Below, one piece after another: positions 13,192 through 43,947 of a stretch of 64,000 nt of DNA (its first letter is position 1; every line of letters begins with the position of its first letter). Under the pieces are notes generated by a model. That model made no database searches. It was not told the origin of the DNA and saw only the letters and a program-made list of their open reading frames with translations. The DNA is from Ciceribacter sp. T2.26MG-112.2. GTDB lineage: Bacteria > Pseudomonadota > Alphaproteobacteria > Rhizobiales > Rhizobiaceae. The stretch is taken from the NCBI RefSeq assembly GCF_900492205.1, contig NZ_UEYQ01000002.1, positions 1 through 64,000 on the forward strand, in the 5' to 3' direction. Made by a program: the position numbers and the translations under genes.

Positions 13192-13228
13192 AATCTATCG
13201 CCCGTAACGTGTTCTGAACTGGGAGGAA

Positions 13229-14350
13229 ATGAACATGAAACGCATGCTGCATATGATCATGGGGCTTGCTGCCCTGGCTGCCACGACCGCCGATGCCCGC
13301 GAATTGCGCGTCGCACCCGGCGCACCGCCTGCCCATCCGTCCAACAGCCATCTCTATGGAAAGCTCGTCGAATATCTGCCGGAGGTCTCCGGTGGAAACC
13401 TCACCGCCCAGATGCTCGGTCCCGAAGTGGTGGGCCTCGGCCAGATGAAGGATGCGCTCCAGAGCCAGCTCGTCGAAGTCGGCAACCTGCTGCCGCTCTA
13501 TTTCCCGGCCGACCTGCCGAACATGTCGCTGGCCGGGGAACTGGCACTTTCCGGTCGCGAGCCGCACGCCATGGCGGCGGCGATGACGGAATACATGGTG
13601 ACCTGCGACACCTGCCAGGCGGAGCTGAAGAAGTTCGGCGTTGTCTATCTGGGCTCGGGCTCCTCGGACGTCTATGCGCTCCTGACCAAGACACCGGTCA
13701 AGACTGCGGCCGACATCAAGGGCCTCAGGCTTCGCAGCGGCGGTGCACCCTTCTCGCGCTGGGCCGAGAATTTCGGCGCGGTGCCCGCCAATATCGGGGT
13801 CGGCGACACCTTCGAATCCATGTCGCAGGGCGTGATCGACGGCTCGATGGCGTCGATCGGCGATCTCCTGTCGTTCCGGCTTGTCGAACTGGTGAAGAAC
13901 ATCACCTTCATTCCGCTCGGCACCTATCATGCGACCTCGGATTTCACCGTCGCCAACTCCGCCTGGACAGATCTTTCGCCCGACGAACGCAAGCAATTGG
14001 CGACCGCCGCCAACAAGGCCAATGTCGTCTTCACCCAGCGCTGGGGCTATGAAATGGCCTCGATCGCCAAGGAGGCCGCGCAAAAGGCCGGCATCCAGTT
14101 CCTCGAGCCTGATGCCGAGTTCCTCAAGGCGTCGGAAGCATTCGCCGAGGCCGACAAGGCGACCGCTGCCAAGGTCTCGCAGGAGCGCTTCGGCTTCGAC
14201 GATGCCCAGGCCCGTGTCGACCGCTTCGTCGGTCTGGTCGAGAAATGGAACGGCATCGTCAAGGAAGCGAACGGCGACACCGACGCGATCACCAAGCGTC
14301 TCGACGAAGAAGTCTGGAGCAAGGTCGATTTCGCCACCTACGGCCTTTGA
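13229..14350 (+). CDS. TRAP transporter substrate-binding protein (DctP family)
   Basis: 373 residues with a signal peptide (hydrophobic LHMIMGLAALAATTADA, likely cleaved near residue 24). The DctP fold is indicated by the loop TPVKTAADIKGLRLRSGG, in which the Arg normally contacts the ligand carboxylate, and VIDGSMASIGDL. GGGAGGAA precedes the start; an ATG two codons downstream is also possible. It heads a TRAP operon directly after the hydrolase gene, so hydroxycinnamates or related aromatic acids are the inferred ligands. A strong hairpin separates it from the membrane subunits. Confidence 0.88.
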   Translation: MNMKRMLHMIMGLAALAATTADARELRVAPGAPPAHPSNSHLYGKLVEYLPEVSGGNLTAQMLGPEVVGLGQMKDALQSQLVEVGNLLPLYFPADLPNMSLAGELALSGREPHAMAAAMTEYMVTCDTCQAELKKFGVVYLGSGSSDVYALLTKTPVKTAADIKGLRLRSGGAPFSRWAENFGAVPANIGVGDTFESMSQGVIDGSMASIGDLLSFRLVELVKNITFIPLGTYHATSDFTVANSAWTDLSPDERKQLATAANKANVVFTQRWGYEMASIAKEAAQKAGIQFLEPDAEFLKASEAFAEADKATAAKVSQERFGFDDAQARVDRFVGLVEKWNGIVKEANGDTDAITKRLDEEVWSKVDFATYGL

Positions 14351-14356
14351 GGCCGG

Positions 14357-14395
14357 GGCCGGCGGGCAGCCACCCGCCGGCCGCTCTTCTTTCGA
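14357..14395 (+). terminator. Hairpin between TRAP binding-protein and membrane-subunit genes (attenuator or RNA-stability element)
   Basis: GGCCGGCGGG (14357-14366) pairs perfectly with CCCGCCGGCC (14373-14382) around a 6-base loop, followed by a pyrimidine-rich GCTCTTCTTTC tract. Such hairpins allow more binding protein than permease to be made. Confidence 0.65.
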
Positions 14396-14419
14396 CAATG
14401 CCATTTCAAAGGGTCTTCC

Positions 14420-14935
14420 ATGCCCCAGATATTTTCTCTTGCCGACAGACTGTCGCGCATACTGGCCTTCGTCGGTGCCGTCGGCGTCATCCTGATGATG
14501 GTCCATGTCTGTGCCGACATCGTCGCACGCACGATCACCGGCGCTTCGTTGCCCGCCACGGTCGAAATCGTCTCCTATTACTACATGGTGCTCGTCGCCT
14601 TCCTGCCGCTGGCATGGGTCGAGCGCAGGGGCGGCATGATTTCGGTCGAACTGATCGAGTTCATGATGTCGCCGCGCATGATGAAGATCTCCGACGCCAT
14701 GGTCGCCGCGCTCGGCACGGTCATCTATGCGGTGATGGCCTATGCGACCTGGATCACGGCAGTGAAGAACTACGTGACCGGCACCTTCGTCGTCGCGCTG
14801 CAGGTGAAAATCATCACCTGGCCCGGCTATTTCCTGCCGTCCATCGGCTTTGCGCTCGCGGCGGCCATCCTGGCCGTCCGCTTCCTTGAGATCACCACAG
14901 ACAGCGTCGATGGAACGCGGGAGAGCGAGGCATGA
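14420..14935 (+). CDS. TRAP transporter small membrane subunit (DctQ family)
   Basis: 171 residues with four predicted membrane helices, the size and topology of DctQ. The helix containing VHVCADIVARTITG followed by SLPATVEIVSYYYMVLVAFLPLA is typical. Its stop overlaps the start of the large subunit as ATGA, so the two are translationally coupled. It works with the binding protein at 13229 and the large subunit at 14932 in sodium-driven uptake, probably of an aromatic acid. Confidence 0.85.
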   Translation: MPQIFSLADRLSRILAFVGAVGVILMMVHVCADIVARTITGASLPATVEIVSYYYMVLVAFLPLAWVERRGGMISVELIEFMMSPRMMKISDAMVAALGTVIYAVMAYATWITAVKNYVTGTFVVALQVKIITWPGYFLPSIGFALAAAILAVRFLEITTDSVDGTRESEA

Positions 14936-16239
14936 GCGTCGAAACCGGTCTCTACGGCATCGGCATACTGGCGCTGCTCCTGCTCCTGCGGATACCCGTG
15001 GCGCTGGCGATGATCTCCGTCTCGTTCGGCGGCATCGCGTTTCTGCTCGGCTTCAAGCCCGCGCTCGGGATGATCACCTCGACGCCGTACAGTTTCGTGG
15101 CAAGCTGGACCATGAGCGCCGTGCCGATGTTCCTGCTGATGGGTTTCATCTCCTTTCACGCCGGGCTCACGACCAATCTCTTCGATGCGGCAAAGGCGAT
15201 CCTCGGGCGGGTTCCCGGCGGGCTGGCGATTTCCTCGATCTTCGCCTGCACCGGCTTTGCCGCCGTCAGCGGCTCGTCGATCGCCTGTGCCGCCGCCATG
15301 GGCCGGATCGCCATCCCGGAAATGGTGGCTGCCGGCTATCGGCCGAGTTTTGCCGCAGGCGCACTTGCCGCCGGCGGCACGATCGGGGCGCTGATCCCGC
15401 CCTCTATCCTGATGATCGTCTACGGCGTCTTTGCCGAGACCTCGATCACGCAGATCTTTGTCGGCGGCATCGGCGTCGGCCTTCTGACCGCACTCTCCTA
15501 TTGCATCGTCGTGCTTGTGGTCTGCTGGTTGAGGCCCGACATCGTGCCGCGCACGCTGACGGCCGTAGCGGGGGAGGGCGGCAACCGGGCGGCTATCCTG
15601 CGCATATGGCCGCTGCTCATCCTGGTGCTGCTGGTGTTCGGCGGGCTGTTCTCCGGCTATTTCACCGCGACGGAGGCGGGCGCGGTCGGTGCCGGAGGCG
15701 CGTTCCTGCTGTCGGCGATCACCGGCAAGCTCAGCATGCAGGTCGTACGCGTCTCGCTTTTGGAAACGCTGACCACCTGCGCATCGCTGTTCATCATCGG
15801 CATCGGCGCCTCGATGTTTACGCGCTTCCTGGGCGTGACCGGGCTCTCCTCCTTCATCGGCACCTTCGTCGCCGGTGCGGATCTCGGCTATGCCGAACTG
15901 ATGACGATCATCGTGGTGATCTATCTCATTCTCGGCATGTTCATGGAGCCGTTCGGCGCCCTGCTGGTGACATTGCCGGTGCTGCTGCCGGTGCTCAAGG
16001 CCGAGGGGATCAGCCTCGTCTGGTTCGGCGTTCTGGTGGTCAAGCTCTTGGAGATCGGCATGATCACGCCGCCCGTGGGGCTCAATGTCTTCGTCATCAA
16101 GAACGTGGCGTCCCGTTATGTCACGGTGGTGCAGGTGTTCAAGGGCGTCACGCCCTTCATGCTGGCCGATCTGCTGGTGGTGATCCTGACGATCGCCTTC
16201 CCGGCGATTGTCCTCAGCCTGCCGCAATTGTTCTTCTGA
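14932..16239 (+). CDS. TRAP transporter large membrane subunit (DctM family)
   Basis: 435 residues, about twelve membrane helices. The two repeat signatures are visible: SGSSIACAAAMGRIAIPEMVAAGY with LAAGGTIGALIPPSILMIVYG in the first half and LEIGMITPPVGLNVFVIKN in the second. It forms the transport channel together with DctQ. It is the last gene of the hydroxycinnamate-side operon, followed by a hairpin with a T-rich tail. Confidence 0.9.
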   Translation: MSVETGLYGIGILALLLLLRIPVALAMISVSFGGIAFLLGFKPALGMITSTPYSFVASWTMSAVPMFLLMGFISFHAGLTTNLFDAAKAILGRVPGGLAISSIFACTGFAAVSGSSIACAAAMGRIAIPEMVAAGYRPSFAAGALAAGGTIGALIPPSILMIVYGVFAETSITQIFVGGIGVGLLTALSYCIVVLVVCWLRPDIVPRTLTAVAGEGGNRAAILRIWPLLILVLLVFGGLFSGYFTATEAGAVGAGGAFLLSAITGKLSMQVVRVSLLETLTTCASLFIIGIGASMFTRFLGVTGLSSFIGTFVAGADLGYAELMTIIVVIYLILGMFMEPFGALLVTLPVLLPVLKAEGISLVWFGVLVVKLLEIGMITPPVGLNVFVIKNVASRYVTVVQVFKGVTPFMLADLLVVILTIAFPAIVLSLPQLFF

Positions 16240-16413: not shown

Positions 16414-17343
16414 TCAGAGTTCCTTGCGCGAAAGCCTGCCCGGCGACGTGTTTTCCTGGCGGTCGGCCCAATCTCCCGCCTCCTTGATTCCACCGAGGGG
16501 AAAGATATGCAACTGCTCGATCAGGCTGTCGGGATTACTCGCCTTGTAGTCGGCGAGCCCTGCCACGACCTCGGTCGGCTCGTAAGGAACGAGAAGGCGC
16601 GTCACATCCATGGCCCGCTTCTGGAGCACCTTCAGGGACGGCCCGACCCCGCATGCAAGCGCATATTTGAGCAACGTCTGCAGTTTGGCCGGCCCGGCGA
16701 TGCCGACATGGATCGGCAGCGTGACGCCGGCGCGCTGTATGCGCTCGGCCCAGTCCGTGACGGAGCGCGCGTCGAAAGCGAACTGGGTGACGATCGCCAT
16801 ACGGGCATCGGTTCTTGAGGCAAAGTCCTGTTTCCAGGCAAGCGCCTGGTCGACGCCACGCGTCGAGCCGTCCCGGTCGATGTCACGGTTTCCCTCGGGA
16901 TGGCCGGCGATATGGAGCCGGTTAAATCCGTATCGATCGAACAAGCCGGTCTCCATCATCTGGATCGAGCTGTCGAGACTGCCCGCGGGTTCCGGCTGCC
17001 CCCCGCCCAAAAGCAAGGCCTCTTGAACGCCCGCTTCGTTGCGATAGCGCTTGATCCAGTCCTCCAGCGTTGCAGCATCAGGAATGCTGCGGGCCGGGAA
17101 GTGCGGCATGACCGGGAAGCCCTCTTCGTGCAGCCGGCGCGCGGTCGCGATCATGTCTTCAATCGGGGTTCCGGCGATGTGGGCGATATAGACGCGCGTT
17201 CCGGCGGGCAGGAGTGCCCTGAAGTCGTCGACCTTGGCCGCGGTGCGCGGCATGACCTCGATCGACCAGCCCCCGAGGAGGTCGCCCAGACCGGGAGATG
17301 ACACTTGCCGGTTTGCGCGGCTTTTGAAATTCAGCAATGCCAT
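16414..17343 (-). CDS. Methylenetetrahydrofolate reductase family protein (LigC-like, probable 5-methyl-THF oxidation in O-demethylation)
   Basis: 309 residues from an ATG with GGGAGGAAAAG; an upstream in-frame start would overlap the operator and is rejected. It has the MetF barrel: FSIE-like WSIEVMPRTA, the flavin/folate segment RLHIAGHPEGNRDID, TQFAFDA and VGIAGPA. In Sphingobium SYK-6 a MetF-family enzyme recycles the 5-methyl-THF made by the LigM/DesA demethylases. Here it sits divergently from a formyl-THF deformylase gene and 4 kb from a LigM-like gene, with a shared ATGTATACAT box at 17376. So it likely returns the methyl group as 5,10-methylene-THF rather than serving methionine synthesis. 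Confidence 0.75.
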   Translation of the reverse strand: MALLNFKSRANRQVSSPGLGDLLGGWSIEVMPRTAAKVDDFRALLPAGTRVYIAHIAGTPIEDMIATARRLHEEGFPVMPHFPARSIPDAATLEDWIKRYRNEAGVQEALLLGGGQPEPAGSLDSSIQMMETGLFDRYGFNRLHIAGHPEGNRDIDRDGSTRGVDQALAWKQDFASRTDARMAIVTQFAFDARSVTDWAERIQRAGVTLPIHVGIAGPAKLQTLLKYALACGVGPSLKVLQKRAMDVTRLLVPYEPTEVVAGLADYKASNPDSLIEQLHIFPLGGIKEAGDWADRQENTSPGRLSRKEL

Positions 17344-17375
17344 CTTTTCCTCCCAAGACCCATGAATGTATACAT

Positions 17376-17546: not shown

Positions 17547-18395
17547 ATGACCAATTATGTTTTGACGCTGCGCTGCAACAACCGCAGCGGCATCGTCGCT
17601 GCCGTGGCAACGCGTATTGCCGCCCATGGCGGCGACATATTCGAGGCGCACCAGTTCGACGATGGCGAGACCGGCATGTTCTTCATGCGCGTGGCTTTCT
17701 TCATGGCGGGACCGGTCGAGGCCTTCCGGACGGCTCTGGCGGAAGACGAGAAGGTCTATGGGCTGGATCTGTCGCTGCGCGTGGCGGGGCTGAAGCGCAA
17801 GGTGCTGCTGCTGGTCTCCAAGTTCGACCATTGCCTCGGAGACTTGCTTTACCGCATGCGGATCGGCGAGTTGAACATGGAAGTCGTCGGCATCATCGGC
17901 AACCATCCGCGCGAGGCGCTGAACCTGACGCTGATGGAGGGGATTGCCTATCACCACCTGCCGGTCACGCGGGAGACGAAGCCGGCGCAGGAGGCGCAGA
18001 TCCGGGCCATCTTCGAGCAAACCGGCGCGGAACTTGTCGTGCTTGCACGTTACATGCAGGTGCTTTCAGACGAATTGTCGGCCTATCTGTCGGGCCGCTG
18101 CATCAACATCCATCATAGCTTCCTGCCCGGTTTCAAGGGCGCGAAGCCCTATCATCAGGCCCATGAGCGCGGCGTGAAGATGATCGGCGCCACCGCGCAC
18201 TACGTGACCGGCCACCTCGACGAAGGTCCGATCATTTGCCAAGACGTCGAGGCCGTTACCCATGCCGACACGTCGGAAGACCTGGTTCGCAAGGGGCGCG
18301 ACATCGAGCGCCGCGTGCTCGCCCGCGCGGTCGCCTGGCATCTGGAGGACCGCGTCCTGCTCAACAAGGGCAAGACGGTGGTCTTCGCGCGATAG
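17547..18395 (+). CDS. purU: Formyltetrahydrofolate deformylase
   Basis: 282 residues starting at an ATG after AGGGAGGAA. An N-terminal ACT domain (residues 1-80) is followed by a formyl-transferase-type hydrolase domain with the catalytic Asn-His segment [20 protein letters not shown] and [14 protein letters not shown], where the Asp completes the active site. It hydrolyses 10-formyl-THF to formate and THF. In a demethylation gene set this gives a way to unload the one-carbon unit and return free THF to the O-demethylase, in place of the formate-THF ligase (LigH) used elsewhere. FolD would have to be supplied from another locus. Confidence 0.9.
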
Positions 18396-18413: not shown

Positions 18414-18734
18414 CTAGCGGCGCAAGGTCATCGGATCGGCGATGCGGTGGGCCTGAAATGTTTCCGGCAGCGGCGTCAACTCGATCGAGGCGACGATGCC
18501 GGCCCTGTTGAAAGGGTCGCCCTCGGCAAAGGCGCGGGCCTGGGCGGGGTCGGCGGCCTCGAGGATGCCGAAGTTGCCGATGGAGGCACCATTCTCGTCG
18601 AGCAGCGCCGATCCGATGAGCACGGTCGCAGCCCCGTCGCCGCCGGATTGCACCCAGGAACGGTGCGCCGGTCGATGAGTGTCGCGAGCCGCATCTTGTC
18701 CCGCATGGTGCAGGCAGCGCATGAGGAAATACAT
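18414..18734 (-). CDS. YciI-like (YCII domain) protein
   Basis: 106 residues, start MYFLMRCLHH just after the stop of the LigB gene. It shows the YCII pattern: strand MYFLMRCLHH, RPAHRSWVQSGG with the conserved His, LIGSALLDENG, and FAEGDPFNRAGIVASIEL with the conserved Asp-Pro. The fold resembles muconolactone isomerase, and some YCII proteins are dehydrochlorinases or lyases, but most have no known reaction. Being last in the operon with the ring-cleavage genes suggests a role on the ring-cleavage product. Confidence 0.75.
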   Translation of the reverse strand: MYFLMRCLHHAGQDAARDTHRPAHRSWVQSGGDGAATVLIGSALLDENGASIGNFGILEAADPAQARAFAEGDPFNRAGIVASIELTPLPETFQAHRIADPMTLRR

Positions 18735-18738
18735 AAGC

Positions 18739-19581
18739 TCAGCCTGCGTTTTCGAGCACGACCATGCCCGCACCCGTCATCGAGGCCGGCGCGTGATAGT
18801 GCTTGTGGAGCAGGTTTACCTGCGGGTTCATCGCGGCGCGCATGACCAGCCACATGATCAATTCCGCCCCTTCCGAACCGAACTGTTCGACATAGTCCTC
18901 ACGGCTCATGGCCCGATAGGGTTCAGGGTTCGCGGCGATGCCGTCGAGCCAGGCGCGGTCCGCCGGCTGGTTGATGAAGCCGGCGCGGGCGCCCTGAAGC
19001 TGATGCGACAGGCCGCCGGTCCCCATGATGACAACCCGCTCGTCGCCGGGCCAGCTTTCGATTGCCTCCCGCAGGACGAGGCCCATGTCCCAGCAGCGTT
19101 GCGGGGTGGGGATCGGATACTGGATCGTGTTGACCCAGATCGGCAGAATCTTGACCGGCCAGTGCTCCAGTCGGCCGAAGAACAGTTCCATCGGGACCTG
19201 CAGGCCGTGGTCGACCTCGATTTCGCGGCAGACCAGCGGGTCGAAATGCCGCTCAACGAGCTTGTCGACGAAATGCCAGGAGAAGTCGACCGCTCCCTCG
19301 AAGGGCGGAATGGCGCGTGGACCCCAGCCCTCGTCCACCGGCTGGTAAGTCTCGGCGACACCGACGGCGAAGGTCGGCACCTTGTCGAGGAAGAAGGTAT
19401 TGCCGTGGTCGTTGAAGATGACGACGGCGATGTCGGGTTTCGCGTCCCGCATCCACTGCTTGCCGAATTCGTAGCCGTCGAAGAAGGGTTTCCAGTCGGC
19501 GCTATCGCGCAGGCCCTTGTCGAGTGCCGCGCCAATCGAGGGGACGTGGCTCGTGCCGATGCCGCCGATGATCCTAGCCAT
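18739..19581 (-). CDS. ligB: Extradiol ring-cleavage dioxygenase, LigB family (protocatechuate 4,5-dioxygenase beta-subunit-like)
   Basis: 280 residues of the type II extradiol dioxygenase family. Iron ligands can be matched to those of Sphingobium LigB: H12 (GTSHVPSIG), H59 (FNDHGNTFF) and E240 (EGAELIMWLVMR); the catalytic base is H193 (GGLSHQL). It cleaves a catechol-type ring next to the hydroxyls using Fe(II) and O2. The small alpha (LigA) partner is not a separate gene: it is the C-terminal part of the upstream protein at 19574-20626, whose end overlaps this start by 8 bases. Protocatechuate from vanillate is the likely substrate; gallate, 3-O-methylgallate or another catechol remain possible. 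Confidence 0.85.
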   Translation of the reverse strand: MARIIGGIGTSHVPSIGAALDKGLRDSADWKPFFDGYEFGKQWMRDAKPDIAVVIFNDHGNTFFLDKVPTFAVGVAETYQPVDEGWGPRAIPPFEGAVDFSWHFVDKLVERHFDPLVCREIEVDHGLQVPMELFFGRLEHWPVKILPIWVNTIQYPIPTPQRCWDMGLVLREAIESWPGDERVVIMGTGGLSHQLQGARAGFINQPADRAWLDGIAANPEPYRAMSREDYVEQFGSEGAELIMWLVMRAAMNPQVNLLHKHYHAPASMTGAGMVVLENAG

Positions 19582-20626
19582 TGCGTTTCTTCCCCAATCG
19601 TTCGTAGAGAAAATCGTCGTGCGACATGCCGGCCTGCGCCGCGCCGATCTGCGTGATCGGGGTCGGATCGACCGCCGCGATCTTCAAAATGAAGAACAGG
19701 TTGCCGCCCAGCCGCACCATCTCGTGCCAGTCGCGCCGCATCACGGCCGCCTTTTCCTCAGGCGTCAGGCCAAAGCGGTCGAGATAGGCTTCCTCATTGG
19801 CCTTGAAGGCCTCGCGATTGGCCGGCTGGCCAAGCGCCATGGCCATCTTGTTGATCCTGTAGCCGCGGATCGATCCCGCGCGATCGAATAGTGGCGTATC
19901 GGGTATGGCTTCCTTCTCGGGCGTCCTCCTGCCAAATCTGCGGTGGAGCCAGTCGCAGATGGCGCTGGCAACGTCCTCGGCGCGCTCCACCGGGGCAAAA
20001 TGTCCAGCATGCTCGATGATGACCAGTTCGGCGTCCGGCACCACCTCGGCGATTTCCCGGTGCTGCGCGATGGGGCTCCAGCCGTCCTCACGCGCTGCAA
20101 TGAGCAGGACCGGGCACTTGAAATTTGCCATATAGGCGCCGGCATCGGGGCGGTCGAGCAGGGCGCGGATCTGGCGCTCGTGCACGACGGGGCCGGCGCG
20201 CAGGACCATGGCTTTCAGGCGGCCAAGCAGTTCCGTGTCGTCCGTGCGGGAAGGGGCGAGCATCGGTGGCAGCCACTGGTCGGCCAGCGCCGCCATGTCG
20301 TGATTGCCCAGATCGATCATCTGCTGACGCTTGGCTTCTTCGCCCTCTCGCCTGGGCTGATAACCCGTGTTGGCAAGTACCAAGCCGCGAATGCGTTCCG
20401 GCGCCTGCCGCGCCATCTCCATCGCTACCCGTCCGCCCATCGAGTGACCAATGGCGATCAGATCGCCGTCGATCTCGTCAAGAATGCGCGAGGCCATGGT
20501 GGGTATCGAGGTGTTCCCTGTCACTTCGGCGTGACGGATCGGCATCACCGTCTTTGTGGCCTCGGCAATCGGCCCCCACACCGTCGAATCGGACAGCAGT
20601 CCGGGAATGTACACCAGCGTCGTCAT
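19574..20626 (-). CDS. Fusion of an alpha/beta-hydrolase with a LigA-type dioxygenase alpha subunit
   Basis: 350 residues. Residues 1-~232 are an alpha/beta-hydrolase with a complete triad: S62 (GHSMGG), D181 (AREDGWSP), H209 (EHAGHFAP). Residues ~243-350 match protocatechuate 4,5-dioxygenase alpha subunit LigA: RGYRINKMAMALGQPANREA, YLDRFGLTPEEKAAV, GGNLFFILKIAA and AAQAGMSHDDF. LigA normally is a free ~120-140-residue protein that forms a lid over LigB. The fusion ties a hydrolase to the dioxygenase, suggesting that the cleavage product or an ester precursor is hydrolysed on the same complex. Starts at 20632 or 20647 are also in frame; GGGAGG lies just upstream. No signal peptide. Confidence 0.85.
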   Translation of the reverse strand: MTTLVYIPGLLSDSTVWGPIAEATKTVMPIRHAEVTGNTSIPTMASRILDEIDGDLIAIGHSMGGRVAMEMARQAPERIRGLVLANTGYQPRREGEEAKRQQMIDLGNHDMAALADQWLPPMLAPSRTDDTELLGRLKAMVLRAGPVVHERQIRALLDRPDAGAYMANFKCPVLLIAAREDGWSPIAQHREIAEVVPDAELVIIEHAGHFAPVERAEDVASAICDWLHRRFGRRTPEKEAIPDTPLFDRAGSIRGYRINKMAMALGQPANREAFKANEEAYLDRFGLTPEEKAAVMRRDWHEMVRLGGNLFFILKIAAVDPTPITQIGAAQAGMSHDDFLYERLGKKRNG

Positions 20627-20657: not shown

Positions 20658-20689
20658 TGTATACAGTGAAGTCAAGTGAATGTATACAT
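20658..20689. promoter_or_regulatory. Two TGTATACA operators upstream of the ring-cleavage operon
   Basis: TGTATACA occurs at 20658-20665 and, within ATGTATACAT, at 20680-20689, with centres 23 bases apart. Both lie 30-65 bases upstream of the hydrolase-LigA start and in the region shared with the divergent GntR gene (start 20853), suiting autoregulation and control of the dioxygenase operon. A weaker relative (TGAATACATG) lies nearer the gntR start. Confidence 0.7.
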
Positions 20690-20852: not shown

Positions 20853-21587
20853 ATGAAGGTTTCCGAAGTCGCGACGCATGGCCGCCGGGCGGTGATCGAG
20901 TTGCGCGAGAAGATCGTCAGCGGCGAGTTGCCGGGCGGCACGCGTCTGTTCGAGGTGTCGCTGGCCGAGGTGCTGGATATTTCCCGCACGCCGGTTCGCG
21001 AGGCGCTGTCGCGGCTGGCCGAGGAAGGGCTTCTTGATCGGCTGCCCAATGGCGGATTTATCGTACGCCGCTTCGGCTATGCCGACGTGATCGATTCCAT
21101 CGAATTGCGCGGCGTCATGGAGGGTACGGCGGCCCGGCTTGCGGCCGAACGCGGGGTGACGCCCGAAGCCCTGGCGCGGATCAGCGACGTTGTCGGGCGG
21201 TTGGACACCTGTTTCGGTCCGGGCGCGGACGAGGTTGATTTCGACACCTATGCCGACCTGAACGAGGAGTTTCATCACCAGCTTGCGGCCCTTTCGGGTA
21301 GCGACATCGTTCGGCGCGAGGTGGAGCGTGCCAGTTCGCTGCCCTTCGCGTCGCCGTCGGCCTTCCTTCCCAACAAGACGGAGATCGAGGCCTTCCGCCG
21401 ATCCTTGCGCTCGGCCCAGGAGCAGCACCATGCCATGGTCGAGGCCATCGCTGCGCGCGAGGGGGCCCGTGCGGAATGGATCGCCCGCGAACATGCGCGG
21501 ACCGCCCGGCACAATCTCGAATACATTTTCAGCCAGGACCCCGAACTGCTGCAGAAGATCCCGGGCCTGGCGCTCATCCATCGTTAG
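20853..21587 (+). CDS. GntR-family (FCD/FadR-like) transcriptional regulator of the O-demethylation/ring-cleavage genes
   Basis: 244 residues. N-terminal winged helix: LREKIVSGELPGGTRLFEVS, then recognition region LDISRTPVREALSRLAEEGLL and a wing GGFIVRRF. The C-terminal ~150 residues form the all-helical FCD ligand domain with NEEFHHQLAALSGS, where the Asp/Asn and His residues bind metal. It lies between the divergent dioxygenase operon and the downstream LigM-like gene. The ATGTATACAT boxes at 17376, 20680, 21702 and 27963 are its most likely targets. An aromatic acid effector such as vanillate is inferred, by analogy with VanR-type GntR proteins. Confidence 0.85.
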   Translation: MKVSEVATHGRRAVIELREKIVSGELPGGTRLFEVSLAEVLDISRTPVREALSRLAEEGLLDRLPNGGFIVRRFGYADVIDSIELRGVMEGTAARLAAERGVTPEALARISDVVGRLDTCFGPGADEVDFDTYADLNEEFHHQLAALSGSDIVRREVERASSLPFASPSAFLPNKTEIEAFRRSLRSAQEQHHAMVEAIAAREGARAEWIAREHARTARHNLEYIFSQDPELLQKIPGLALIHR

Positions 21588-21700: not shown

Positions 21701-21712
21701 GATGTATACATC
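21701..21712. promoter_or_regulatory. GATGTATACATC palindrome upstream of the LigM-like gene
   Basis: A perfect 12-base palindrome containing ATGTATACAT at 21702-21711, ending 28 bases before the ATG at 21740 and overlapping where the core promoter or transcription start would be. It suits repression by the GntR protein encoded just upstream. Confidence 0.7.
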
Positions 21713-21739: not shown

Positions 21740-23149
21740 ATGGCCAATTCCAGTCTTCATGATGTTTTGGGTGAAAATCAGGATGCGGTGGGATTGCTGC
21801 GCAATTCCCAGGTTGGTATCTATGTATACCCTGTCGTCGCGGCCGAGTTCGCCAACTGGCGCTCGGAGCAGGCGGCCTGGCGCAATTCCGCCGTGCTCTT
21901 CGACCAGTCGCACCATATGGATGAACTGATCGTCGAGGGACCGGATGCGGAGAAGTTTCTCGCCCATCACGGCATCAATTCCTTCGCCAATTTCGGCCTT
22001 AATCGCGCAAAGCATTTCGTCCCGGTCACACCGAACGGCCACGTCATCGGCGACCACATCATCTTCCGCGAGCGCGAGGACAAGTTCATTCTGGTCGGCC
22101 GCGCGCCGACGTCCAACTGGCTGATGTTCTGCGCCGCCTACGGCAAGTGGAATGTGCGCCTAAAGCACGATCCGCGTTCGCCGTCGCGGCCGGAAGGGGA
22201 GCGTGTGCTGCGCACCCATTACCGCTACCAGATCCAGGGTCCCGACGCGCCGAAGGTCCTCGAGCAGATGAATGGCGGCCCCCTGCCGGAGATCAAGTTC
22301 TTCCACGTCGACTGGATCAATGTCGGGTCGAAGAAGGTGCAGGCTCTGCGCCATGGCATGTCGGGCGCTCCGGGTCTCGAGATCTGGGGTCCGTACGAGG
22401 ACAAAGCCTATATTCTCTCCGTCATCCTCGAATCCGCCAAGGCCGCCAAAGTCGATCTCGTCCGCTGCGGCAGCCGCGCCTATTCGACCAACACGCTGGA
22501 ATCCGGCTGGATCCCATCGCCGCTTCCAGGCATCTACACCGGTGACGGCATGCTGGCCGAGTACCGCAAGTGGCTCGGTGCAGACAGTTACGAGGCGACC
22601 GGCGCGATCGGCGGCTCCTTCGTCTCCGACAATATCGAGGACTATTACGTCAATCCGTTCGAACTCGGCTACGACTTCTATATCGGCTGGAAGAAGGACG
22701 ACTTCGTCGGCAAGGCCGCGCTTGAACAGATGAAGGAGCGGAAGAACCGCAAGAAGGTCACCTTCGAGTGGAACCGCGAGGACGTGCTCAAGGTCATCGC
22801 CTCCGGCTTCGAGGACGGGCTGCCCTACAAGTGGATCGACTTCCCGCAGCCGAACTATGCCTCGACCAGCGCCGACATGGTGATGAAGGGTGATAAGATG
22901 ATCGGCATGTCGATGTTCAATGGCTACAGCTTCAATGAACGCTGCATGCTGTCGCTCGGTGTCGTCGATCAGGATGTCGAAGAAGGCGACGTGCTGACGT
23001 TGATCTGGGGCGAGCCGGACGGCGGCTCGCGCAAGACCTCCATCGAGCCGCACCGGCAGGCCGAGATCCGCGTCCGCGTGGCGCCGACGCCCTATGCGCG
23101 CGAGGCCCGCGAGAACTACGCCGACAGTTGGCGCAAGCGGAAGGACTGA
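21740..23149 (+). CDS. ligM: Tetrahydrofolate-dependent aryl O-demethylase (LigM/DesA type, GcvT-fold aminomethyltransferase family)
   Basis: 469 residues, near the length of Sphingobium LigM (471). It has a GcvT-like layout: early FDQSHHMDELIVEGPDAEKF, the mid-region YRYQIQGPDAPKVLEQM, then GLEIWGPYEDKAYI, and a C-terminal barrel with GYSFNERCMLSLGVVD and IWGEPDGGSRKTSIEPH. LigM moves the methyl group of vanillate or 3-O-methylgallate to THF, yielding protocatechuate or gallate and 5-methyl-THF. The start follows GGGAGGAG. The metF-like, purU and LigAB-like genes nearby and the shared palindromes support this role over glycine cleavage or dimethylglycine metabolism. Syringate (DesA) is an alternative substrate. 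Confidence 0.8.
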   Translation: MANSSLHDVLGENQDAVGLLRNSQVGIYVYPVVAAEFANWRSEQAAWRNSAVLFDQSHHMDELIVEGPDAEKFLAHHGINSFANFGLNRAKHFVPVTPNGHVIGDHIIFREREDKFILVGRAPTSNWLMFCAAYGKWNVRLKHDPRSPSRPEGERVLRTHYRYQIQGPDAPKVLEQMNGGPLPEIKFFHVDWINVGSKKVQALRHGMSGAPGLEIWGPYEDKAYILSVILESAKAAKVDLVRCGSRAYSTNTLESGWIPSPLPGIYTGDGMLAEYRKWLGADSYEATGAIGGSFVSDNIEDYYVNPFELGYDFYIGWKKDDFVGKAALEQMKERKNRKKVTFEWNREDVLKVIASGFEDGLPYKWIDFPQPNYASTSADMVMKGDKMIGMSMFNGYSFNERCMLSLGVVDQDVEEGDVLTLIWGEPDGGSRKTSIEPHRQAEIRVRVAPTPYAREARENYADSWRKRKD

Positions 23150-23294: not shown

Positions 23295-23993
23295 TCAGAT
23301 GCTCAGATGGGCGTCGAGCGTCTCAGGCGAAGCCAGCAGCGCCGCCGACGTGTCGTGATAGACGATCGCGCCGCGCTCGAGGAAGACGACCTCGTCGGTG
23401 AGCGGCAATATCTTGCGCGCCTTTTGTTCGACGATGATGGCCGAGATCCCTTCGTCGGTGACGATGCGGCGCATTGCGGCCAGCAATTCGTCGACGATGA
23501 TCGGCGCCAGTCCCTCCAGGGGTTCGTCCAGCAGCAGAAGCTTCGGATTGAGCATAAGCGCGCGCGCGACCGCCAGCATCTGCTGCTCTCCGCCGGAAAG
23601 CTGGTTGCCGAGATTGCGCCGGCGCTCCTGCAGGCGCGGGAACATGCCGAAGGCGCGCGCAAGCGTGAAAGGTCCGGGCCGGGCCGTCGCCGCCAGGTTT
23701 TCCTCCACGGTCAGCGAGCGGAAGATGTTGCGTTCCTGCGGCACCCAGCCGATGCCGAGCGCCGCCCGTTGTTCGGGGCGAAGCCGGGAAATGTCCCGGC
23801 CGGCGAGACGGATCGCCCCGGAATGATAGGTCGTGGTGCCGACGATGGTGTCGAGCAGCGTCGTCTTGCCGGCGCCGTTGCGGCCGAGCAGCGCCAGCGA
23901 CTTGCCCTCCTCGAGGGCAAGCTCGATGTTGAACAGGACGCGTGCCTCGCGATATCCGGCCGACAGCCCTTCGATGCGCAGCAGTTCCGGCAT
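23295..23993 (-). CDS. ABC transporter ATP-binding protein, LivF type
   Basis: 232-residue ATPase of the branched-chain amino acid/aromatic acid (HAAT) class. Walker A GRNGAGKTT, signature LSGGEQQML and Walker B LLLLDEP are intact, and the length is right for LivF. Its ATG overlaps the stop of the LivG-type gene (ATGA). It is the last gene of the five-gene set running from 27845 to 23295, converging on the LigM-like gene. The operator at 27963 upstream of the first gene ties this importer to the O-demethylation regulon, so an aromatic acid such as vanillate is the inferred cargo. Confidence 0.88.
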   Translation of the reverse strand: MPELLRIEGLSAGYREARVLFNIELALEEGKSLALLGRNGAGKTTLLDTIVGTTTYHSGAIRLAGRDISRLRPEQRAALGIGWVPQERNIFRSLTVEENLAATARPGPFTLARAFGMFPRLQERRRNLGNQLSGGEQQMLAVARALMLNPKLLLLDEPLEGLAPIIVDELLAAMRRIVTDEGISAIIVEQKARKILPLTDEVVFLERGAIVYHDTSAALLASPETLDAHLSI

Positions 23994-24739
23994 CAGGCGT
24001 CCTCCCCGAGATAGATCGCCTTGACGTGGCGGTCCTTGGATATTTCCTCCACCGTGCCTTCGGCAAAGAGGCTGCCCGCCGCCAGAACCGAAATGCGGTC
24101 GGCAAAGGAAAAGACGAGGTCCATGTCGTGCTCGATCAGTACCACAGTGACGTCCGGCGGAAGGTCGCGGACGATCGACAGAACCTCATGGCGTTCCTCC
24201 TCCGGAACGCCCGCCGCCGGCTCGTCCAGCAGCAGCACCCTGGGGCGGGTGGCAATGGCGAGCGCGATCTCCAGCAGCCGCTGCTTTCCGTAGGGAAGGA
24301 GGGTTGTTGGGACGCCCATCGTATCGACCAGGCGGAACCGCTCCAGCAGTTGTGCCGCCTCGTCCGCCACGTCGCGGTCGCCCGACAGCGGCTTCCAGGC
24401 GCGCCAGCCGTGCCCTTTACGTTCACCGATCGCCAGCATCATCGATTCCAGCGGGGTGAAATCGCCGAAGAGCTGATTGATCTGGAAGGTGCGCGACAGG
24501 CCGCGACCGACGCGGGCATGCGCCGGCAGGTTGGTGATATCCTCGCCGCCAAGCAGGACCTGGCCGTTGCTGGGGGTGAGGGCCCCGGTGAGCAAATTGA
24601 TCAACGTGGTCTTGCCGGCACCGTTCGGACCGATCAGGGCGTGCCGCGCGCCCTGCCGGACGCTGAGCGAGACGTCGTTGGTGGCCATGAAGGCTCCGAA
24701 GCGCTTGACCAGGTTGCGGGTTTCGAGGGCGACCGTCAT
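23993..24739 (-). CDS. ABC transporter ATP-binding protein, LivG type
   Basis: 248 residues. Walker A GPNGAGKTT and Walker B VLLLDEP are clear; between them the signature region reads LLPYGKQRLLEIALAIATRP, so the usual LSGGQ is replaced by LPYGKQ, a variant seen in LivG proteins. The C-terminal switch VVLIEHDMDLVF is intact. It is coupled by overlaps to LivM upstream and LivF downstream, and pairs with LivF as the asymmetric ATPase dimer of this importer. Confidence 0.88.
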   Translation of the reverse strand: MTVALETRNLVKRFGAFMATNDVSLSVRQGARHALIGPNGAGKTTLINLLTGALTPSNGQVLLGGEDITNLPAHARVGRGLSRTFQINQLFGDFTPLESMMLAIGERKGHGWRAWKPLSGDRDVADEAAQLLERFRLVDTMGVPTTLLPYGKQRLLEIALAIATRPRVLLLDEPAAGVPEEERHEVLSIVRDLPPDVTVVLIEHDMDLVFSFADRISVLAAGSLFAEGTVEEISKDRHVKAIYLGEDA

Positions 24740-25767
24740 GACGCGTCCTCCGCAGCCTGTTCTTTCGCCTTCAGCCGGCCGGCCGCACCGGGCAGATAGG
24801 TCCGCCAGCGACCGAGGCGCTCACGGCCGACGAAGACGATGATGATCAGGATGAGGCCGATCCAGAACATCCAGTATTGCGGGGTGATAACGGAGAGCCA
24901 ATCGCGCAGCACCGAGAAGATCACCGCGCCGAATACGCCGCCATAGAGATAGCCGACCCCGCCGATCACCAGCACCAGAAGCACGTCGGCGGAGCGGTGG
25001 AAGGCCAGCACATCGGGCGAGACGAAGCTGGTCGTCTGGGTCAGAAGCGCGCCGGCGATGCCGGCATAGGCCGCAGAAATCGTGTAGATGACGACGATCC
25101 GGCGCGTGGGCGAGATGCCAAGCATGGAGGCGCGTCGCTGGTTGCGCTTGATCGCCTTCAGGGACAGGCCGAAGGGCGAGTTCACGATGCGGCGCGCGAT
25201 GTAGGTCAGTGCCATCAGCACCACGAGCGCATAGATGTATCCGTTGCGGCCCCAGAGATCGAACTCGAACATTCCGAGAATCGGCGTGACCGTCACGCCG
25301 CTGAGGCCGTCCGCGCCGCCGGTCAGCCAGGTGGCCTGATTGGCAATCTCGGCGAGTAGCATGGCGACGCCGAAGGTCGTCATCAGCCGGGTGAGATCCG
25401 AGCCGCGCAGCACGAGGAAGCTGGTGACGAAGCCGAACGCCCCGCTGACCAGGCCCGCGACCACAAGACCAGTCACCGGCTCGGAAAAATAGTCGCGGGC
25501 GAACAGCCCGGCGGCATAGGCGCCCATGCCGAAGAAGGCGGTGTGGCCGAGCGAGACAATGCCGGCATAGCCAAGGATCAGGTCGAGCGAGATGGCGAAA
25601 AGCGCCAGGATGGCGATCTCGGTCAGGATCAGCATCTTGGAGGGCAGGAGGAAAATCATCGCCACCGCCAGCAGCCACAGGCCCACCTCCCAGAGGCGCC
25701 AGCGGTTCGTCTGCCTGAGGAACGCCTGTGCTGTCTCGACGGCGGAGGGAGGTGCGCCGGCGCTCAT
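24736..25767 (-). CDS. ABC transporter permease, LivM type
   Basis: 343 residues with about ten membrane helices. Family marks include GYAGIVSLGHTAFFGMGAYA near residue 70 and KAIKRNQRRASMLGI, the cytoplasmic coupling loop. The start overlaps the LivH stop and the stop overlaps the LivG start. It carries a charged C-terminal tail after the last helix. It forms the membrane channel with the LivH-type protein at 25764. Confidence 0.88.
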   Translation of the reverse strand: MSAGAPPSAVETAQAFLRQTNRWRLWEVGLWLLAVAMIFLLPSKMLILTEIAILALFAISLDLILGYAGIVSLGHTAFFGMGAYAAGLFARDYFSEPVTGLVVAGLVSGAFGFVTSFLVLRGSDLTRLMTTFGVAMLLAEIANQATWLTGGADGLSGVTVTPILGMFEFDLWGRNGYIYALVVLMALTYIARRIVNSPFGLSLKAIKRNQRRASMLGISPTRRIVVIYTISAAYAGIAGALLTQTTSFVSPDVLAFHRSADVLLVLVIGGVGYLYGGVFGAVIFSVLRDWLSVITPQYWMFWIGLILIIIVFVGRERLGRWRTYLPGAAGRLKAKEQAAEDAS

Positions 25768-26624
25768 CGGCCGCCCTCGCGCGCGAACAGGCCATAGGGC
25801 CTCAGGATCAGCATGACGATCATCACCGCATAGATGATGAATGAGCCCAACTGCGGCACGTAATATTTACCTGCCACATCGGCGATGCCGAGCAGGAGCG
25901 CGGCAATGAACGGGCCGGTGATCGAGGAGGTGCCTCCCACCGTGACGACGATCATGAAATAGATGAGGAACTTGAGCGGGAAATTCGGATCGAGGCCGAG
26001 GAGGTCGACCCCGAGCGCACCGCCGAGGCCGGCAAGGCCGGAGCCGAGCGCAAACGTCAGCGCGAAGATCACCGAGACATTGATGCCCAGTCCACGCGCC
26101 ACCCGCCCGTCGTCGACGGCGGCGCGCAACTGGCTGCCGAACCGGGTGCGCGTCAGCGCCAGTTGCAGCGCCACGGTGAGCACTGCGCAAAGCAAGATGA
26201 TGAACAGCCTGTAGTGGCCGACGCCGACGCCGAGGAACTCGAAGCGTCCGCGCAGGAGCGGCGGCAGGTTGATCATCTGCTGTTGGCCACCCATGAAGTA
26301 GTCGACTGCGGCAATCGACATGAAGACCAGGCCGATCGAAAACAGGACCTGGTCGAGGTGTGATACGCCGTAGAGATGCCGATAGAGCGTCCGCTCCAGG
26401 ATGGCCCCGGCGAGCGCGGTGACGAGGAAGGCGGCCGGCAGGCACCAATAGAAGGAAATGCCGTAGCGGTTCATCAGGATCACGGTGACGTAGCCGCCCG
26501 CCATGGCGAAGGCGCCATGGGCCAGGTTGACGAAGTTCATCAGGCCCAGCGTCAGCGACAGGCCGCAGGCAAGGACGAAGAGAAGCATGCCATAGGCGAT
26601 GCCGTCGAACAGGATTGTCAGCAT
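25764..26624 (-). CDS. ABC transporter permease, LivH type
   Basis: About 286 residues, eight membrane helices. It begins MLTILFDGIAYGMLLFVLA; the conserved GLMNFVNLAHGAFAMAGGY and a C-terminal FIIYAVMIVMLILRPYGLF end the protein as in LivH. An in-frame TTG at 26636 would add four residues, but the ATG at 26624 is the ordinary start. It is separated from the binding-protein gene by a 12-base-pair hairpin (26639-26670). Confidence 0.87.
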   Translation of the reverse strand: MLTILFDGIAYGMLLFVLACGLSLTLGLMNFVNLAHGAFAMAGGYVTVILMNRYGISFYWCLPAAFLVTALAGAILERTLYRHLYGVSHLDQVLFSIGLVFMSIAAVDYFMGGQQQMINLPPLLRGRFEFLGVGVGHYRLFIILLCAVLTVALQLALTRTRFGSQLRAAVDDGRVARGLGINVSVIFALTFALGSGLAGLGGALGVDLLGLDPNFPLKFLIYFMIVVTVGGTSSITGPFIAALLLGIADVAGKYYVPQLGSFIIYAVMIVMLILRPYGLFAREGGR

Positions 26625-26638
26625 GATCACTCGCAAGG

Positions 26639-26670
26639 GCGTGGAGGGCCCGATCTCAGGCCCTCCACGC
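26639..26670 (-). terminator. Hairpin between ABC binding-protein gene and permease genes
   Basis: GCGTGGAGGGCC (26639-26650) pairs with GGCCCTCCACGC (26659-26670) around an 8-base loop. It lies 11 bases after the binding-protein stop on the minus strand and has no T-run, so partial attenuation or 3'-end protection of the upstream message is likely. Confidence 0.6.
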
Positions 26671-26681
26671 GGTTGTGGCGC

Positions 26682-27845
26682 TTAGTTGGCGTTCGGATCG
26701 CGGATCTTCTCGTAGGTCTTGAGCTCGACGTTATAGAGCTCGCCGTCCACTTTCTTGACTTCGCGGATGTAGATGTCCTGGACGATGTCGCGCGTGGCCG
26801 GGTCGATCGCGATCGGTCCGCGCGGGCTCATCCATTCCATGCCCTTCATCGCCTCGACGAGCTTCGTTCCGTCGGTGTCGCCACCGGTCTTCTCCAGTGC
26901 CGCATAGGCGAGGTGCATGGCATCATAGCCGCCGACCGACATGAAGTTGGGGCGCATGTTGTTGTTGGCCTTGCGCACCTGCTCGACGAAGGCCTTGTTT
27001 TCCGGGCTGTCGTGGTTGGCCGAGTAGAAATGGCCCGTCACCACGCCCATCGCCGGATCGCCGATGCCGTTCAGCAGATCGTCGTCCGTGACGTCGCCGG
27101 TGGCGATCAGCTTGATCCCCGCCTCCTTCAGCCCGCGATCGGTGAACTGCTTCATGAACAGCGAGCCGACGCCCGAGGGGACGAAAACGAAGACGGCGTC
27201 GGGTTTGGCGTCACGAACGCGCTGCAGGAAGGGGGCAAAGTCCGGATTCTGCAGCGGTACGCGAACCGCTTCGACGATCTCGCCGCCCTCCTTCTTGAAC
27301 TGGTCGGTGAAACCCTTCTCGATGTCATGGCCGGGGCCGTAGTCCGTCACCAGCGTGACGACGCGCTTCAGGCCGTTCTCCACAGCCCAGGTCGCAACCG
27401 GCACCGCGGACTGGGGGCCGCCCATGCTGGTGCGGACAAAATAGTCCGACTGCTTCATGATCGCCGAGGTCGTTGCCGAGGTGATGATGGCCGGGACCTT
27501 GGCCTGGTTGAGCACCGGTGCCACCGACATGGCAAGCGGGGTCAGGCCGAAGCCTGTGAGCATGGATACCCCCTCGTTGACCACGAGTTCCTGGGCGATG
27601 CGTCTTGTCTGGTCGGCGGTGCCGGCATCGTCGCGCAGCACAAGTTCGATCTTCTTGCCGGCGACCGTGTCGCCATGCAAAGCCATGTAGGCGCGAACGC
27701 CTGCTTCGACCTGTCGGCCGGTCGAGGCGAAGGGGCCGGTCATCGGCAGGATAAGCCCAATCTTGACCGCGTCCTGCGCCAGTGCAGACCCCGCAGCCAG
27801 CATCGAAAGCAGAGTGCTGGCGATGAAAACTCTTCTCGTAACCAT
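26682..27845 (-). CDS. ABC transporter substrate-binding protein, LivK/HAAT type (aromatic acid candidate)
   Basis: 387 residues with a signal peptide (MVTRRVFIASTLLSMLAAGS, cleavage near ALAQ). The mature start VKIGLILPMTGPFASTGRQ is typical of type I periplasmic binding proteins, as are DDAGTADQTRRIAQELV and GGYDAMHLAYAALE. A perfect GntR-type palindrome lies at 27962-27973 upstream and a partial copy overlaps the start codon. With the neighbouring demethylase genes, a methoxylated or hydroxylated benzoate is a more likely ligand than an amino acid. Confidence 0.87.
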   Translation of the reverse strand: MVTRRVFIASTLLSMLAAGSALAQDAVKIGLILPMTGPFASTGRQVEAGVRAYMALHGDTVAGKKIELVLRDDAGTADQTRRIAQELVVNEGVSMLTGFGLTPLAMSVAPVLNQAKVPAIITSATTSAIMKQSDYFVRTSMGGPQSAVPVATWAVENGLKRVVTLVTDYGPGHDIEKGFTDQFKKEGGEIVEAVRVPLQNPDFAPFLQRVRDAKPDAVFVFVPSGVGSLFMKQFTDRGLKEAGIKLIATGDVTDDDLLNGIGDPAMGVVTGHFYSANHDSPENKAFVEQVRKANNNMRPNFMSVGGYDAMHLAYAALEKTGGDTDGTKLVEAMKGMEWMSPRGPIAIDPATRDIVQDIYIREVKKVDGELYNVELKTYEKIRDPNAN

Positions 27846-28238
27846 GTATACTCCTCCCGTTTGTCCCATCCCGCGCCCAGGCGCCGGATCCGCTGCAGTG
27901 CAAACGTTTCTCGTCACTCCCAAGACGAGATACTGTCGCACGAAAATCGCATGCTGGAGTTTATGTATACATAGATCGCGGACGGCCACAAGGCAAACGA
28001 GCCTGGCAGGCGGGCAAATTCGCCGGGTTAGGATAGCCCGGCAATTGCTTGGCCGTCTATCACCCGAATGTGATGGCGGCCGCATGGAGTGCCTCGGGTG
28101 AAGATGGCGGTGATCATGGCGGTACCGCCGCCGACATGGCCTGCTGCCATGTGGCGGATGCCGATCCATGTCTCGAACACGTGGTGGATCATAGCCTCGC
28201 GTTCAACGGTGATGTTGACAACGGTGTCCGGGCTGTTT
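27846..28238. other. Intergenic region without a recognisable gene (393 bases)
   Basis: Holds the promoter of the ABC operon at its left end, with operators at 27844-27852 (partial) and 27962-27973. The remaining ~265 bases up to the stop of the GntR gene contain short open frames on both strands, but none shows a ribosome site with family-like residues. It may be the tail of the GntR transcript. Confidence 0.5.
27962..27973. promoter_or_regulatory. TATGTATACATA palindrome upstream of the ABC operon
   Basis: Perfect 12-base palindrome containing ATGTATACAT, 117 bases before the binding-protein start. It is the fourth perfect copy in region C and the one that links the transporter to the demethylation genes. 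Confidence 0.7.
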
Positions 28239-35442: not shown

Positions 35443-37248
<1,806 letters not shown>

Positions 37249-37250
37249 GA

Positions 37251-39061: not shown

Positions 39062-39073
39062 AGTCTATCGTCC

Positions 39074-40591: not shown

Positions 40592-40658
40592 TTTTCGGTT
40601 CCCTTCATTGGCATCGGTTGGTTTAAGATCCCGGCCGGCTTTCCTCCCGGTCGAAAAT

Positions 40659-42140: not shown

Positions 42141-42322
42141 GTCTTAAATCCGAATACACTCCGGCCTTCGGCCGCCGCTACGGGGCTCGCTACCGTCGTC
42201 ATGTTGTCTTGCTGACCAATTTCCGAACGCCGCCGACCTATGGGGTCATCTTTTCAGCGATAGCTGCTGCGTATTCGAAAATAGGAGTTCCCATGTTCTT
42301 CAGTTCGCCCGCTCACCATTTG

Positions 42323-42411
42323 GTGTAATTTATTTTCTCAATAATGCGATAAATCAGTGCGAAGTCAATGAATTTTCCGGGTATCTGTGGATTTGTGTAA
42401 TTCATTTTCTT
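42323..42411. promoter_or_regulatory. Two direct-repeat operators upstream of the M81 operon (candidate RpiR boxes)
   Basis: GTGTAATTTATTTTCTC (42323-42339) and GTGTAATTCATTTTCTT (42395-42411) are identical at 15 of 17 positions and lie 72 bases apart, about 180-270 bases upstream of the M81 start. Both resemble the perfect palindrome GTGAAATTCAATTTCAC next to the rpiR-type gene at 43886. They probably bind the same regulator. Confidence 0.6.
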
Positions 42412-43902: not shown

Positions 43903-43947
43903 CCGGCGCTCCAAATTTTCGCAACGCTGCAATGCAGGCAAGACCGA

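Follow-up and report, generated by a model that had tools for sequence, protein, structure and literature searches.

The window analysed here, a 64,000-nucleotide stretch of the genome of Ciceribacter sp. T2.26MG-112.2, contains a gene in which an α/β-hydrolase and a LigA-type dioxygenase subunit form one polypeptide chain. The fusion is real, recurrent and under selection, and the type of pathway to which it belongs is well supported (Table 1). The protein is probably a bifunctional subunit of an enzyme that opens the ring of 3-O-methylgallate (3MGA), with the fused hydrolase acting on the methyl ester CHMOD; by analogy, it is most likely the one-chain counterpart of MgaC and MgaA, which are separate proteins in Pseudomonas sp. 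NGC7. We found no description of a hydrolase-LigA fusion in the titles and abstract beginnings of the open-licence papers listed.

Table 1. Features of the fusion locus in the window (L numbers denote loci)
Feature	Position	Strand	Evidence
Divergent MetF-like gene (start approximate)	16414..17337	-	TIGR00676, 29 bits
Palindrome ATGTATACAT upstream of metF-like gene	17366..17375	.	Motif search
purU, formyltetrahydrofolate deformylase	17547..18395	+	TIGR00655, 315.2 bits, above cut-off
YCII-related small protein, directly 3' of ligB; candidate pathway isomerase by position (start by eye)	18414..18734	-	PF03795, 39 bits
LigB catalytic subunit, class III extradiol dioxygenase	18739..19581	-	Pfam, residue alignment; overlaps fusion by 8 nt
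Hydrolase-LigA fusion gene, 350 aa	19574..20626	-	ORF and translation; Pfam; fused frame shared by L002, L025 and others
LigA half (residues 237-350), with Ile324 aligned to Phe103 of SYK-6 LigA	19577..19918	-	Pfam; alignments
Hydrolase half, residues 1-232; Ser62/Asp181/His209; likely CHMOD methylesterase	19931..20626	-	Pfam, alignment, AlphaFold2, folds
Palindrome ATGTATACAT upstream of fusion	20680..20689	.	Motif search
GntR/FCD regulator, divergent from fusion	20853..21587	+	Pfam
Palindrome ATGTATACAT upstream of ligM	21702..21711	.	Motif search
LigM-type tetrahydrofolate-dependent O-demethylase	21740..23149	+	NCBIfam NF047885
Branched-chain-amino-acid-type ABC transporter livFGMHK (start approximate)	23295..27860	-	54-71% identity to L048/L049 genes so annotated
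Palindrome ATGTATACAT upstream of livK	27963..27972	.	Motif search

The fusion gene reads on the minus strand from an ATG at 20626 to a stop at 19574. Its translation carries the Pfam domain Abhydrolase_6 across residues 47-222 and, by residues 258-341, belongs to the LigA family PF07746 (101.9 bits, cut-off 25.3); the LigA half aligns to chain A of 1B4U from residue 237 on. Ser62, Asp181 and His209 are kept in all 39 aligned hydrolase rows of L001-L040, where L001 is the window's own locus and L029, which has no hydrolase part, stands outside the count. Profile, fold and triad place the first half among the serine hydrolases of the α/β-hydrolase fold. The original prediction of a hydrolase with this triad and a LigA domain in one gene is borne out by the open reading frame, Pfam and the alignment, and the domains do follow each other without break, as it had said, with no ATG, GTG or TTG between the hydrolase end and the LigA start in the window.

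An AlphaFold2 model of the fusion (mean pLDDT 89.1, pTM 0.68) has hydrolase blocks at pLDDT 93-98, with one block at 86, and a short linker in which residues 234-238 fall below 50. Fold comparison by VIA-align over residues 1-232 found the closest solved fold in the thermophilic esterase 4UHC (Z about 32), and close ones in enol-lactonase 2XUA (Z 29.3) and feruloyl esterase 7DQ9 (Z 28.9); as far as the model goes, these matches fit an ester or lactone hydrolase and leave the substrate unnamed. Two named families were tried and rejected, the 3-oxoadipate enol-lactonase PcaD (TIGR02427, 72.6 bits against a cut-off of 255.85) and the meta-cleavage product hydrolase BphD (TIGR03343, 26.5 bits against 462.15).

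Both halves are maintained. Between the window and L002, the hydrolase has dN 0.104 and dS 0.498 (dN/dS about 0.21), LigA has 0.029 and 0.397 (about 0.07), LigB has 0.016 and 0.427 (about 0.04), and the YCII protein has dN 0.105 and dS 0.564. The hydrolase and the YCII protein evolve faster than the other neighbours measured, staying well under neutrality, and, judged by these substitution rates, purifying selection acts on both halves of the fusion. Decay of the hydrolase half was considered and rejected, the triad being intact and dN/dS about 0.2.

The partner gene, ligB, starts 8 nt inside the fusion gene. Its product scores 181 bits against PF02900 (cut-off 26.3) and His12, Asn57, His59, His193 and Glu240 are kept in 49 of 49 aligned rows, in agreement with the earlier claim of an overlapping LigB-type gene with all iron ligands; His125, in the VDHG motif, lines up with its counterpart in chain B of 1B4U. 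Two narrower assignments were rejected: the LigA half reaches 84.3 bits against the equivalog cut-off of 108.6 for the canonical protocatechuate LigA (TIGR02792), and for the gallate dioxygenase DesB (NF009904, cut-off 412) LigB reaches 292.8 bits and the fusion 57.1. The same genome has two adjacent intradiol dioxygenase genes, so protocatechuate need not pass through LigAB. The view that LigA is normally a stand-alone protein, put forward with the original prediction, has to be widened, as LigA-like domains are also found fused to LigB, as in DesB (PMC3962378, in part).

One position in the LigA half bears on the substrate. Phe103 of LigA from Sphingobium sp. SYK-6 contacts the C5 group of the substrate, and several Phe103 mutants, including slightly smaller hydrophobic ones, cleaved gallate and 3MGA better (PMC10094722, in part). 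The aligned residue is Ile in all 44 rows L001-L044; elsewhere, L045, L048 and L049 have Leu, L053 has Val and L051 has Asn. As controls we used the top 30 LigA loci listed from a 398-genome phylum sample; the 29 that could be aligned have Phe (16), Met (6), Val (4), Asn (2) or Ala (1) at this position and Ile in none, and no fused-type hydrolase lies beside them in stretches of about 2-3 kb. The Ile rows form one clade and are not independent observations, so they support the 3MGA reading and do not prove it.

A genome scan yielded 46 loci beyond the window (L002-L047). Hydrolase and LigA parts adjoin in 38 of them, in the order hydrolase-ligA-ligB; ten of the 38 have one continuous reading frame, 27 have separate genes in different frames, and in L007 the two parts are in frame with a stop between. 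Separate adjoining genes are thus found in 28 of 38 loci, and since these keep the hydrolase as a separate protein, the fusion is dispensable for function. The remaining eight comprise L029, which starts at a contig end and has residues 222-350 only, L041-L044, with LigA and without this hydrolase, and the weak matches L045-L047. An assembly frameshift that joins two genes, one of two circumstances named at the outset as fatal to the idea, might be suspected from the 27 loci with two genes in different frames. It is refuted, because the search for the same fusion elsewhere found the continuous frame in independent genomes, namely in L002 and L025 (which share 84% and 81% identity with the window protein) and in other lineages; we give it next to no probability.

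In many of the split pairs the end of the hydrolase gene and the start of ligA share 4 or 8 nt, so that a small indel can join them. A start codon between the halves is absent from L002, L009 and L056-L058, as it is from the window; the fused Microvirga loci, L008 and L025 have an ATG shortly ahead of LigA, from which a separate LigA could also be made. Four of 397 genomes sampled from the order (G000, G070, G106, G230) have an unbroken match through both halves; G089 (L087) has one frame, but its match begins at a contig end, and G199 (L084) has a match through both halves with stops between, that is, a split in frame. The family sample of 394 genomes gave four unbroken matches, one from the window's own genome and three from one genus, and 13 genomes with both parts as separate adjoining matches; the three unbroken matches from other genomes and 12 of the 13 separate ones were confirmed as stated. 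Five other sampled genomes of the window's own genus gave no match at E 1e-40, so the distribution of the module is patchy.

A tree of LigA plus LigB was built from 70 rows, 64 of them different (18 fused, 44 split, 4 without the hydrolase and 4 outgroup rows); six row pairs are identical and probably represent the same species from two collections. Parsimony requires at least 6 changes between the fused and split states on this tree and 5 on a 55-row tree, with gain and loss indistinguishable and L087, L030 and L090 on long branches. Two fused trios are nested among split rows, one made up of the window, L002 and L025, which has support, and one from genus g435. The fused state persists in the window trio, in the g69/Prosthecomicrobium group, in the g435 trio and in a subclade of Microvirga, a genus that contains both forms.

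Gene content was compared in a census of 46 loci selected for a hydrolase next to LigA. These are the window, the 38 scanned loci and seven further ones, after removal of seven short duplicates and of L057, which is also short. All 46 have LigB, and 14 have the two parts fused. A YCII-related gene follows ligB in 44, and a GntR hit, at identities down to 31%, occurs in 30. LigM is present in 13 loci and VanA in 17, both together in none and neither in 16, some of which end at a contig edge. The O-demethylase is exchangeable among hydrolase-LigA loci, being LigM or VanA and never both; the Microvirga loci have VanAB in place of LigM. Genes of the PIG-L (26/46), PrpF (25/46) and PDC-hydrolase-like (13/46) types also occur, and no SnoaL gene was found in any of the 46 stretches examined, all absences being soft because flank lengths differ. 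As YCII is present in 44 of 46 loci and SnoaL in none, the YCII protein may replace the SnoaL isomerase (MgaD).

The proposed mechanism draws on systems already described. Ring opening of 3MGA gives the methyl ester CHMOD (PMC12314914 and PMC8091115, both in part), in keeping with an early guess that the product might be an ester. CHMOD, whose half-life is put at about 70 min, cyclises to PDC; NGC7 needs its separate α/β-hydrolase MgaC to avoid this cyclisation, and its mgaC deletion mutant cannot use syringate for growth and builds up PDC to 95 mol% (PMC12314914, in part). Because 3MGA opening gives CHMOD and NGC7 needs MgaC, CHMOD hydrolysis is the job that we propose for the fused hydrolase. 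LigB and the LigA half would open 3MGA to CHMOD (4-carboxy-2-hydroxy-6-methoxy-6-oxohexa-2,4-dienoate), and the fused serine hydrolase would take the methyl group off as methanol, giving 4-carboxy-2-hydroxymuconate ahead of the spontaneous cyclisation of the ester to PDC (2-pyrone-4,6-dicarboxylate). The YCII protein may isomerise 4-carboxy-2-hydroxymuconate to 4-oxalomesaconate, which PrpF-, PIG-L- and RraA-type enzymes would process further. LigM would make or consume the methoxylated acid and pass the methyl group to folate, and the GntR protein would control the gene set via ATGTATACAT. The substrate, the activity, the order of the steps, the regulator's site and the benefit of coupling are what we infer in this scheme.

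Several neighbours fit into such a pathway. The ligM product scores 649.4 bits in the vanillate/3MGA O-demethylase family NF047885 (cut-off 580) and is the only match in its genome at E 1e-10. The Liv-type transporter perhaps serves the uptake of aromatic acids. Lower-pathway genes of the PrpF, RraA, VOC and PIG-L types are found on the same contig, about 140 kb off; the PIG-L, RraA and PrpF genes we take to be of the GalB, GalC and GalD types, respectively. The MetF-like gene at 16414-17337, which lies behind a palindrome, has a weak methylenetetrahydrofolate reductase score, far under the TIGR00676 cut-off (29 against 293.7 bits); its product is 32% identical to that of the annotated metF of L053, has no Pfam match and is perhaps a divergent folate enzyme.

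Two other groups of genes in the window deserve mention. Next to the putative regulon, at 12310-16239, lie an Amidohydro_2 gene and the genes for a TRAP transporter (dctP, Q, M); these are 91-99% identical in L002 and L025, against only 76-81% for the hydrolase half. The amidohydrolase at 12310 was rejected both as LigI (no blastp hit to the annotated PDC hydrolase of L080 at E 1e-3) and as LigJ (the gene annotated as oxalomesaconate hydratase in L080 matches it at 25% identity along 207 residues). A peptide-type ABC transporter, an M81 metallopeptidase (MlrC-like) and a D-serine-dehydratase-like gene at 35446-43924 are apparently unrelated to the fusion.

The GntR protein is the predicted reader of the palindrome ATGTATACAT. 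The pattern WTGTATACAW has exactly four sites in the 4.97-Mb genome, all in the fusion cluster, and the reversed control pattern has 1; with one mismatch allowed, 0.16 sites are expected in the window, and none of 100 shuffles reached four. The remote lower-pathway genes have no match, again with one mismatch allowed. By a count made by eye in 17 hand-picked loci, 10 of 12 LigM loci (all but L022 and L026) have a site with the GTATAC core a short way ahead of the hydrolase, and all five VanA loci have one at vanA or ahead of it. The four palindromes of the window delimit a small putative regulon made of the metF-like gene, the fusion operon, ligM and the liv transporter.

Relatives of the hydrolase occur in other settings. 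As a standalone gene it adjoins ligM, purU and metF in the sphingomonad plasmids L053, L076 and L079, lies near SnoaL, LigB and LigA in Sphingobium fuliginis pPDL2 (L051), and stands behind LigA-LigB in Roseomonas (L048, L049); the annotation of other plasmid hits (L050, L052, L074, L078) has no such gene setting. In another family, eight stretches from seven genomes were examined, with pathway context in three (L134, L138, L139) and none in five (L135, L136, L137, L140, L141; 36-38% identity). L139 has a 39% relative of the window hydrolase on the same strand as SnoaL, LigB and LigA, and divergent genes for VanA/VanB-like proteins (only 25 and 31%), PIG-L and RraA; the hydrolases of the context-free L135 and L137 share 58-61% identity with those of L134, L138 and L139 (62% in one pair). 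Four further stretches from the window's own order have YCII and LivK only (L142) or no relevant neighbours (L143-L145). The hydrolases of L160, L163, L164 and L165 are 61-63% identical to the fused one, and no LigA was found in the short stretches examined; some of these have YCII, LigM or PurU/MetF, and other ring-cleavage partners are possible. In the actinobacterial loci L041-L044, LigM-LigA-LigB clusters have the same Ile and a LigA 72-75% identical to the fused one, and no homologue of the fused hydrolase was found in the stretches examined; perhaps a transfer left the esterase behind.

The reading of the hydrolase as a CHMOD esterase has to be weighed against several observations and alternatives. 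LigM may demethylate 3MGA further to gallate, and cleaving gallate calls for no esterase; the LigM-LigA-LigB set of L041-L044, which lacks this hydrolase, also weighs against an esterase role. Further counts against it are the 61-63% identical hydrolases of L160 and L163-L165 in short stretches with no LigA, the stretches of the other family and of the window's own order that have no pathway context, and the 16 census loci with neither demethylase. The enzyme might instead work upstream, freeing gallate, syringate or 3MGA from plant esters for the dioxygenase. Such esters are common in plant matter, and the fold is close to those of esterases, feruloyl esterase included; against this, the N-terminus has no export signal by eye, and relatives stand with SnoaL or YCII and lower oxalomesaconate genes, which leaves the upstream role distinctly improbable. 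It is also improbable that the hydrolase acts on PDC, the lactone formed from CHMOD, as a pyrone lactonase replacing LigI. The closeness of the fold to an enol-lactonase would agree with this, as would the lack of a LigI match in the window's genome (the query was the annotated PDC hydrolase of L080, which as a positive control matched in 13 of 46 census loci by tblastn, that is, by another program), and PDC build-up in the NGC7 mgaC deletion alone does not separate CHMOD from PDC as the substrate (PMC12314914, in part). The authors of that work, however, favour CHMOD (PMC12314914, in part). Moreover, 13 of 46 loci have, in the same stretch, genes 47-49% identical to the annotated PDC hydrolase of L080 (their identity is unsure, as they are closer, at 53-56%, to an unnamed Roseomonas amidohydrolase), and L076 and L079 have a PDC hydrolase together with the standalone hydrolase; as such genes are already present in these loci, a second PDC hydrolase would be redundant. 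Hydrolysis of the CHMOD methyl ester is the function that we prefer.

Why the two genes are joined is a separate matter. Inside the complex, CHMOD might pass from the LigA/LigB active site to the hydrolase half, so that cyclisation to PDC is outrun, with selection for coupling having fused the genes repeatedly; this is conceivable, though we think it rather unlikely. If true, a single ring-cleavage machine would both open the ring and remove the ester. That the hydrolase sits at the mouth of the ring-cleavage site or channels anything, as suggested with the original prediction, stays conjecture; the linker is short and modelled with low confidence, and most relatives found do without the join. 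The fusion may equally be a neutral accident that arose from gene overlap and brings nothing, the halves working as they do in split relatives. This is a serious possibility that we rate a little short of even; it denies the coupling only and is compatible with the CHMOD esterase function. The frequent short overlaps of the split pairs and the coexistence of both forms in Microvirga agree with it, whereas the repeated changes of state and the persistence of the fused state in four groups speak against it, even though persistence does not prove benefit.

The fate of syringyl lignin, as growth or as a polymer building block, depends on which way CHMOD goes, to hydrolysis or to cyclisation into PDC, and Ser62 suggests itself as a one-residue switch for PDC production. 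A natural fusion with split relatives as ready controls makes the question of channelling directly testable, and the recurrence of the join in several bacterial lineages hints at a possible advantage of housing both steps together. The set hydrolase-LigA-LigB-YCII provides a sequence marker for such catabolism in Rhizobiales and relatives, and the palindromes provide a handle for finding regulon members in related genomes.

Among known systems, the Mga system of Pseudomonas sp. NGC7 is alike in gene set, with LigA-like and LigB-like subunits, an α/β-hydrolase, an O-demethylase and a GntR regulator; its hydrolase MgaC (PSN_2689), subunits MgaA/MgaB, SnoaL protein MgaD and VanA1B1 are separate and under a GntR repressor (PMC12314914, in part). 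MgaC and MgaA are thus separate proteins, unlike the fusion, and NGC7 has SnoaL and VanAB where the window has YCII as isomerase candidate and LigM as demethylase (PMC12314914, in part). The NGC7 pathway genes lie in two separate operons, which the fusion cluster and the remote lower-pathway genes of our genome resemble. L139, L138 and L134 resemble mga in gene set. DesC and DesD of Novosphingobium aromaticivorans DSM 12444, together with LigAB, are alike in the proposed conversion of CHMOD to oxalomesaconate; desCD (Saro_2864/2865) is close to ligM (Saro_2861) by locus number, and all are separate genes, unlike the window fusion (PMC8091115, in part). DesC is reported to be 13% identical to MgaC (PMC12314914, in part), whereas the hydrolases beside ligM in sphingomonads, in a desC-like place, and that of the mga-like L139 are 39-44% identical and form one family. 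Therefore, the family of the window hydrolase cannot be close to both MgaC and DesC, and one of the two gene-order parallels misleads. LigAB of Sphingobium sp. SYK-6 (1B4U/1BOU) is likewise a two-subunit class III extradiol dioxygenase with the LigB metal ligands and catalytic His, but its LigA has no hydrolase fused to it and has Phe103 where the fused family has Ile. Finally, the gallate dioxygenase DesB (3WKU; PMC3962378, in part) also joins a LigA-like domain to another catalytic part, which in DesB is LigB itself and in the window is the hydrolase.
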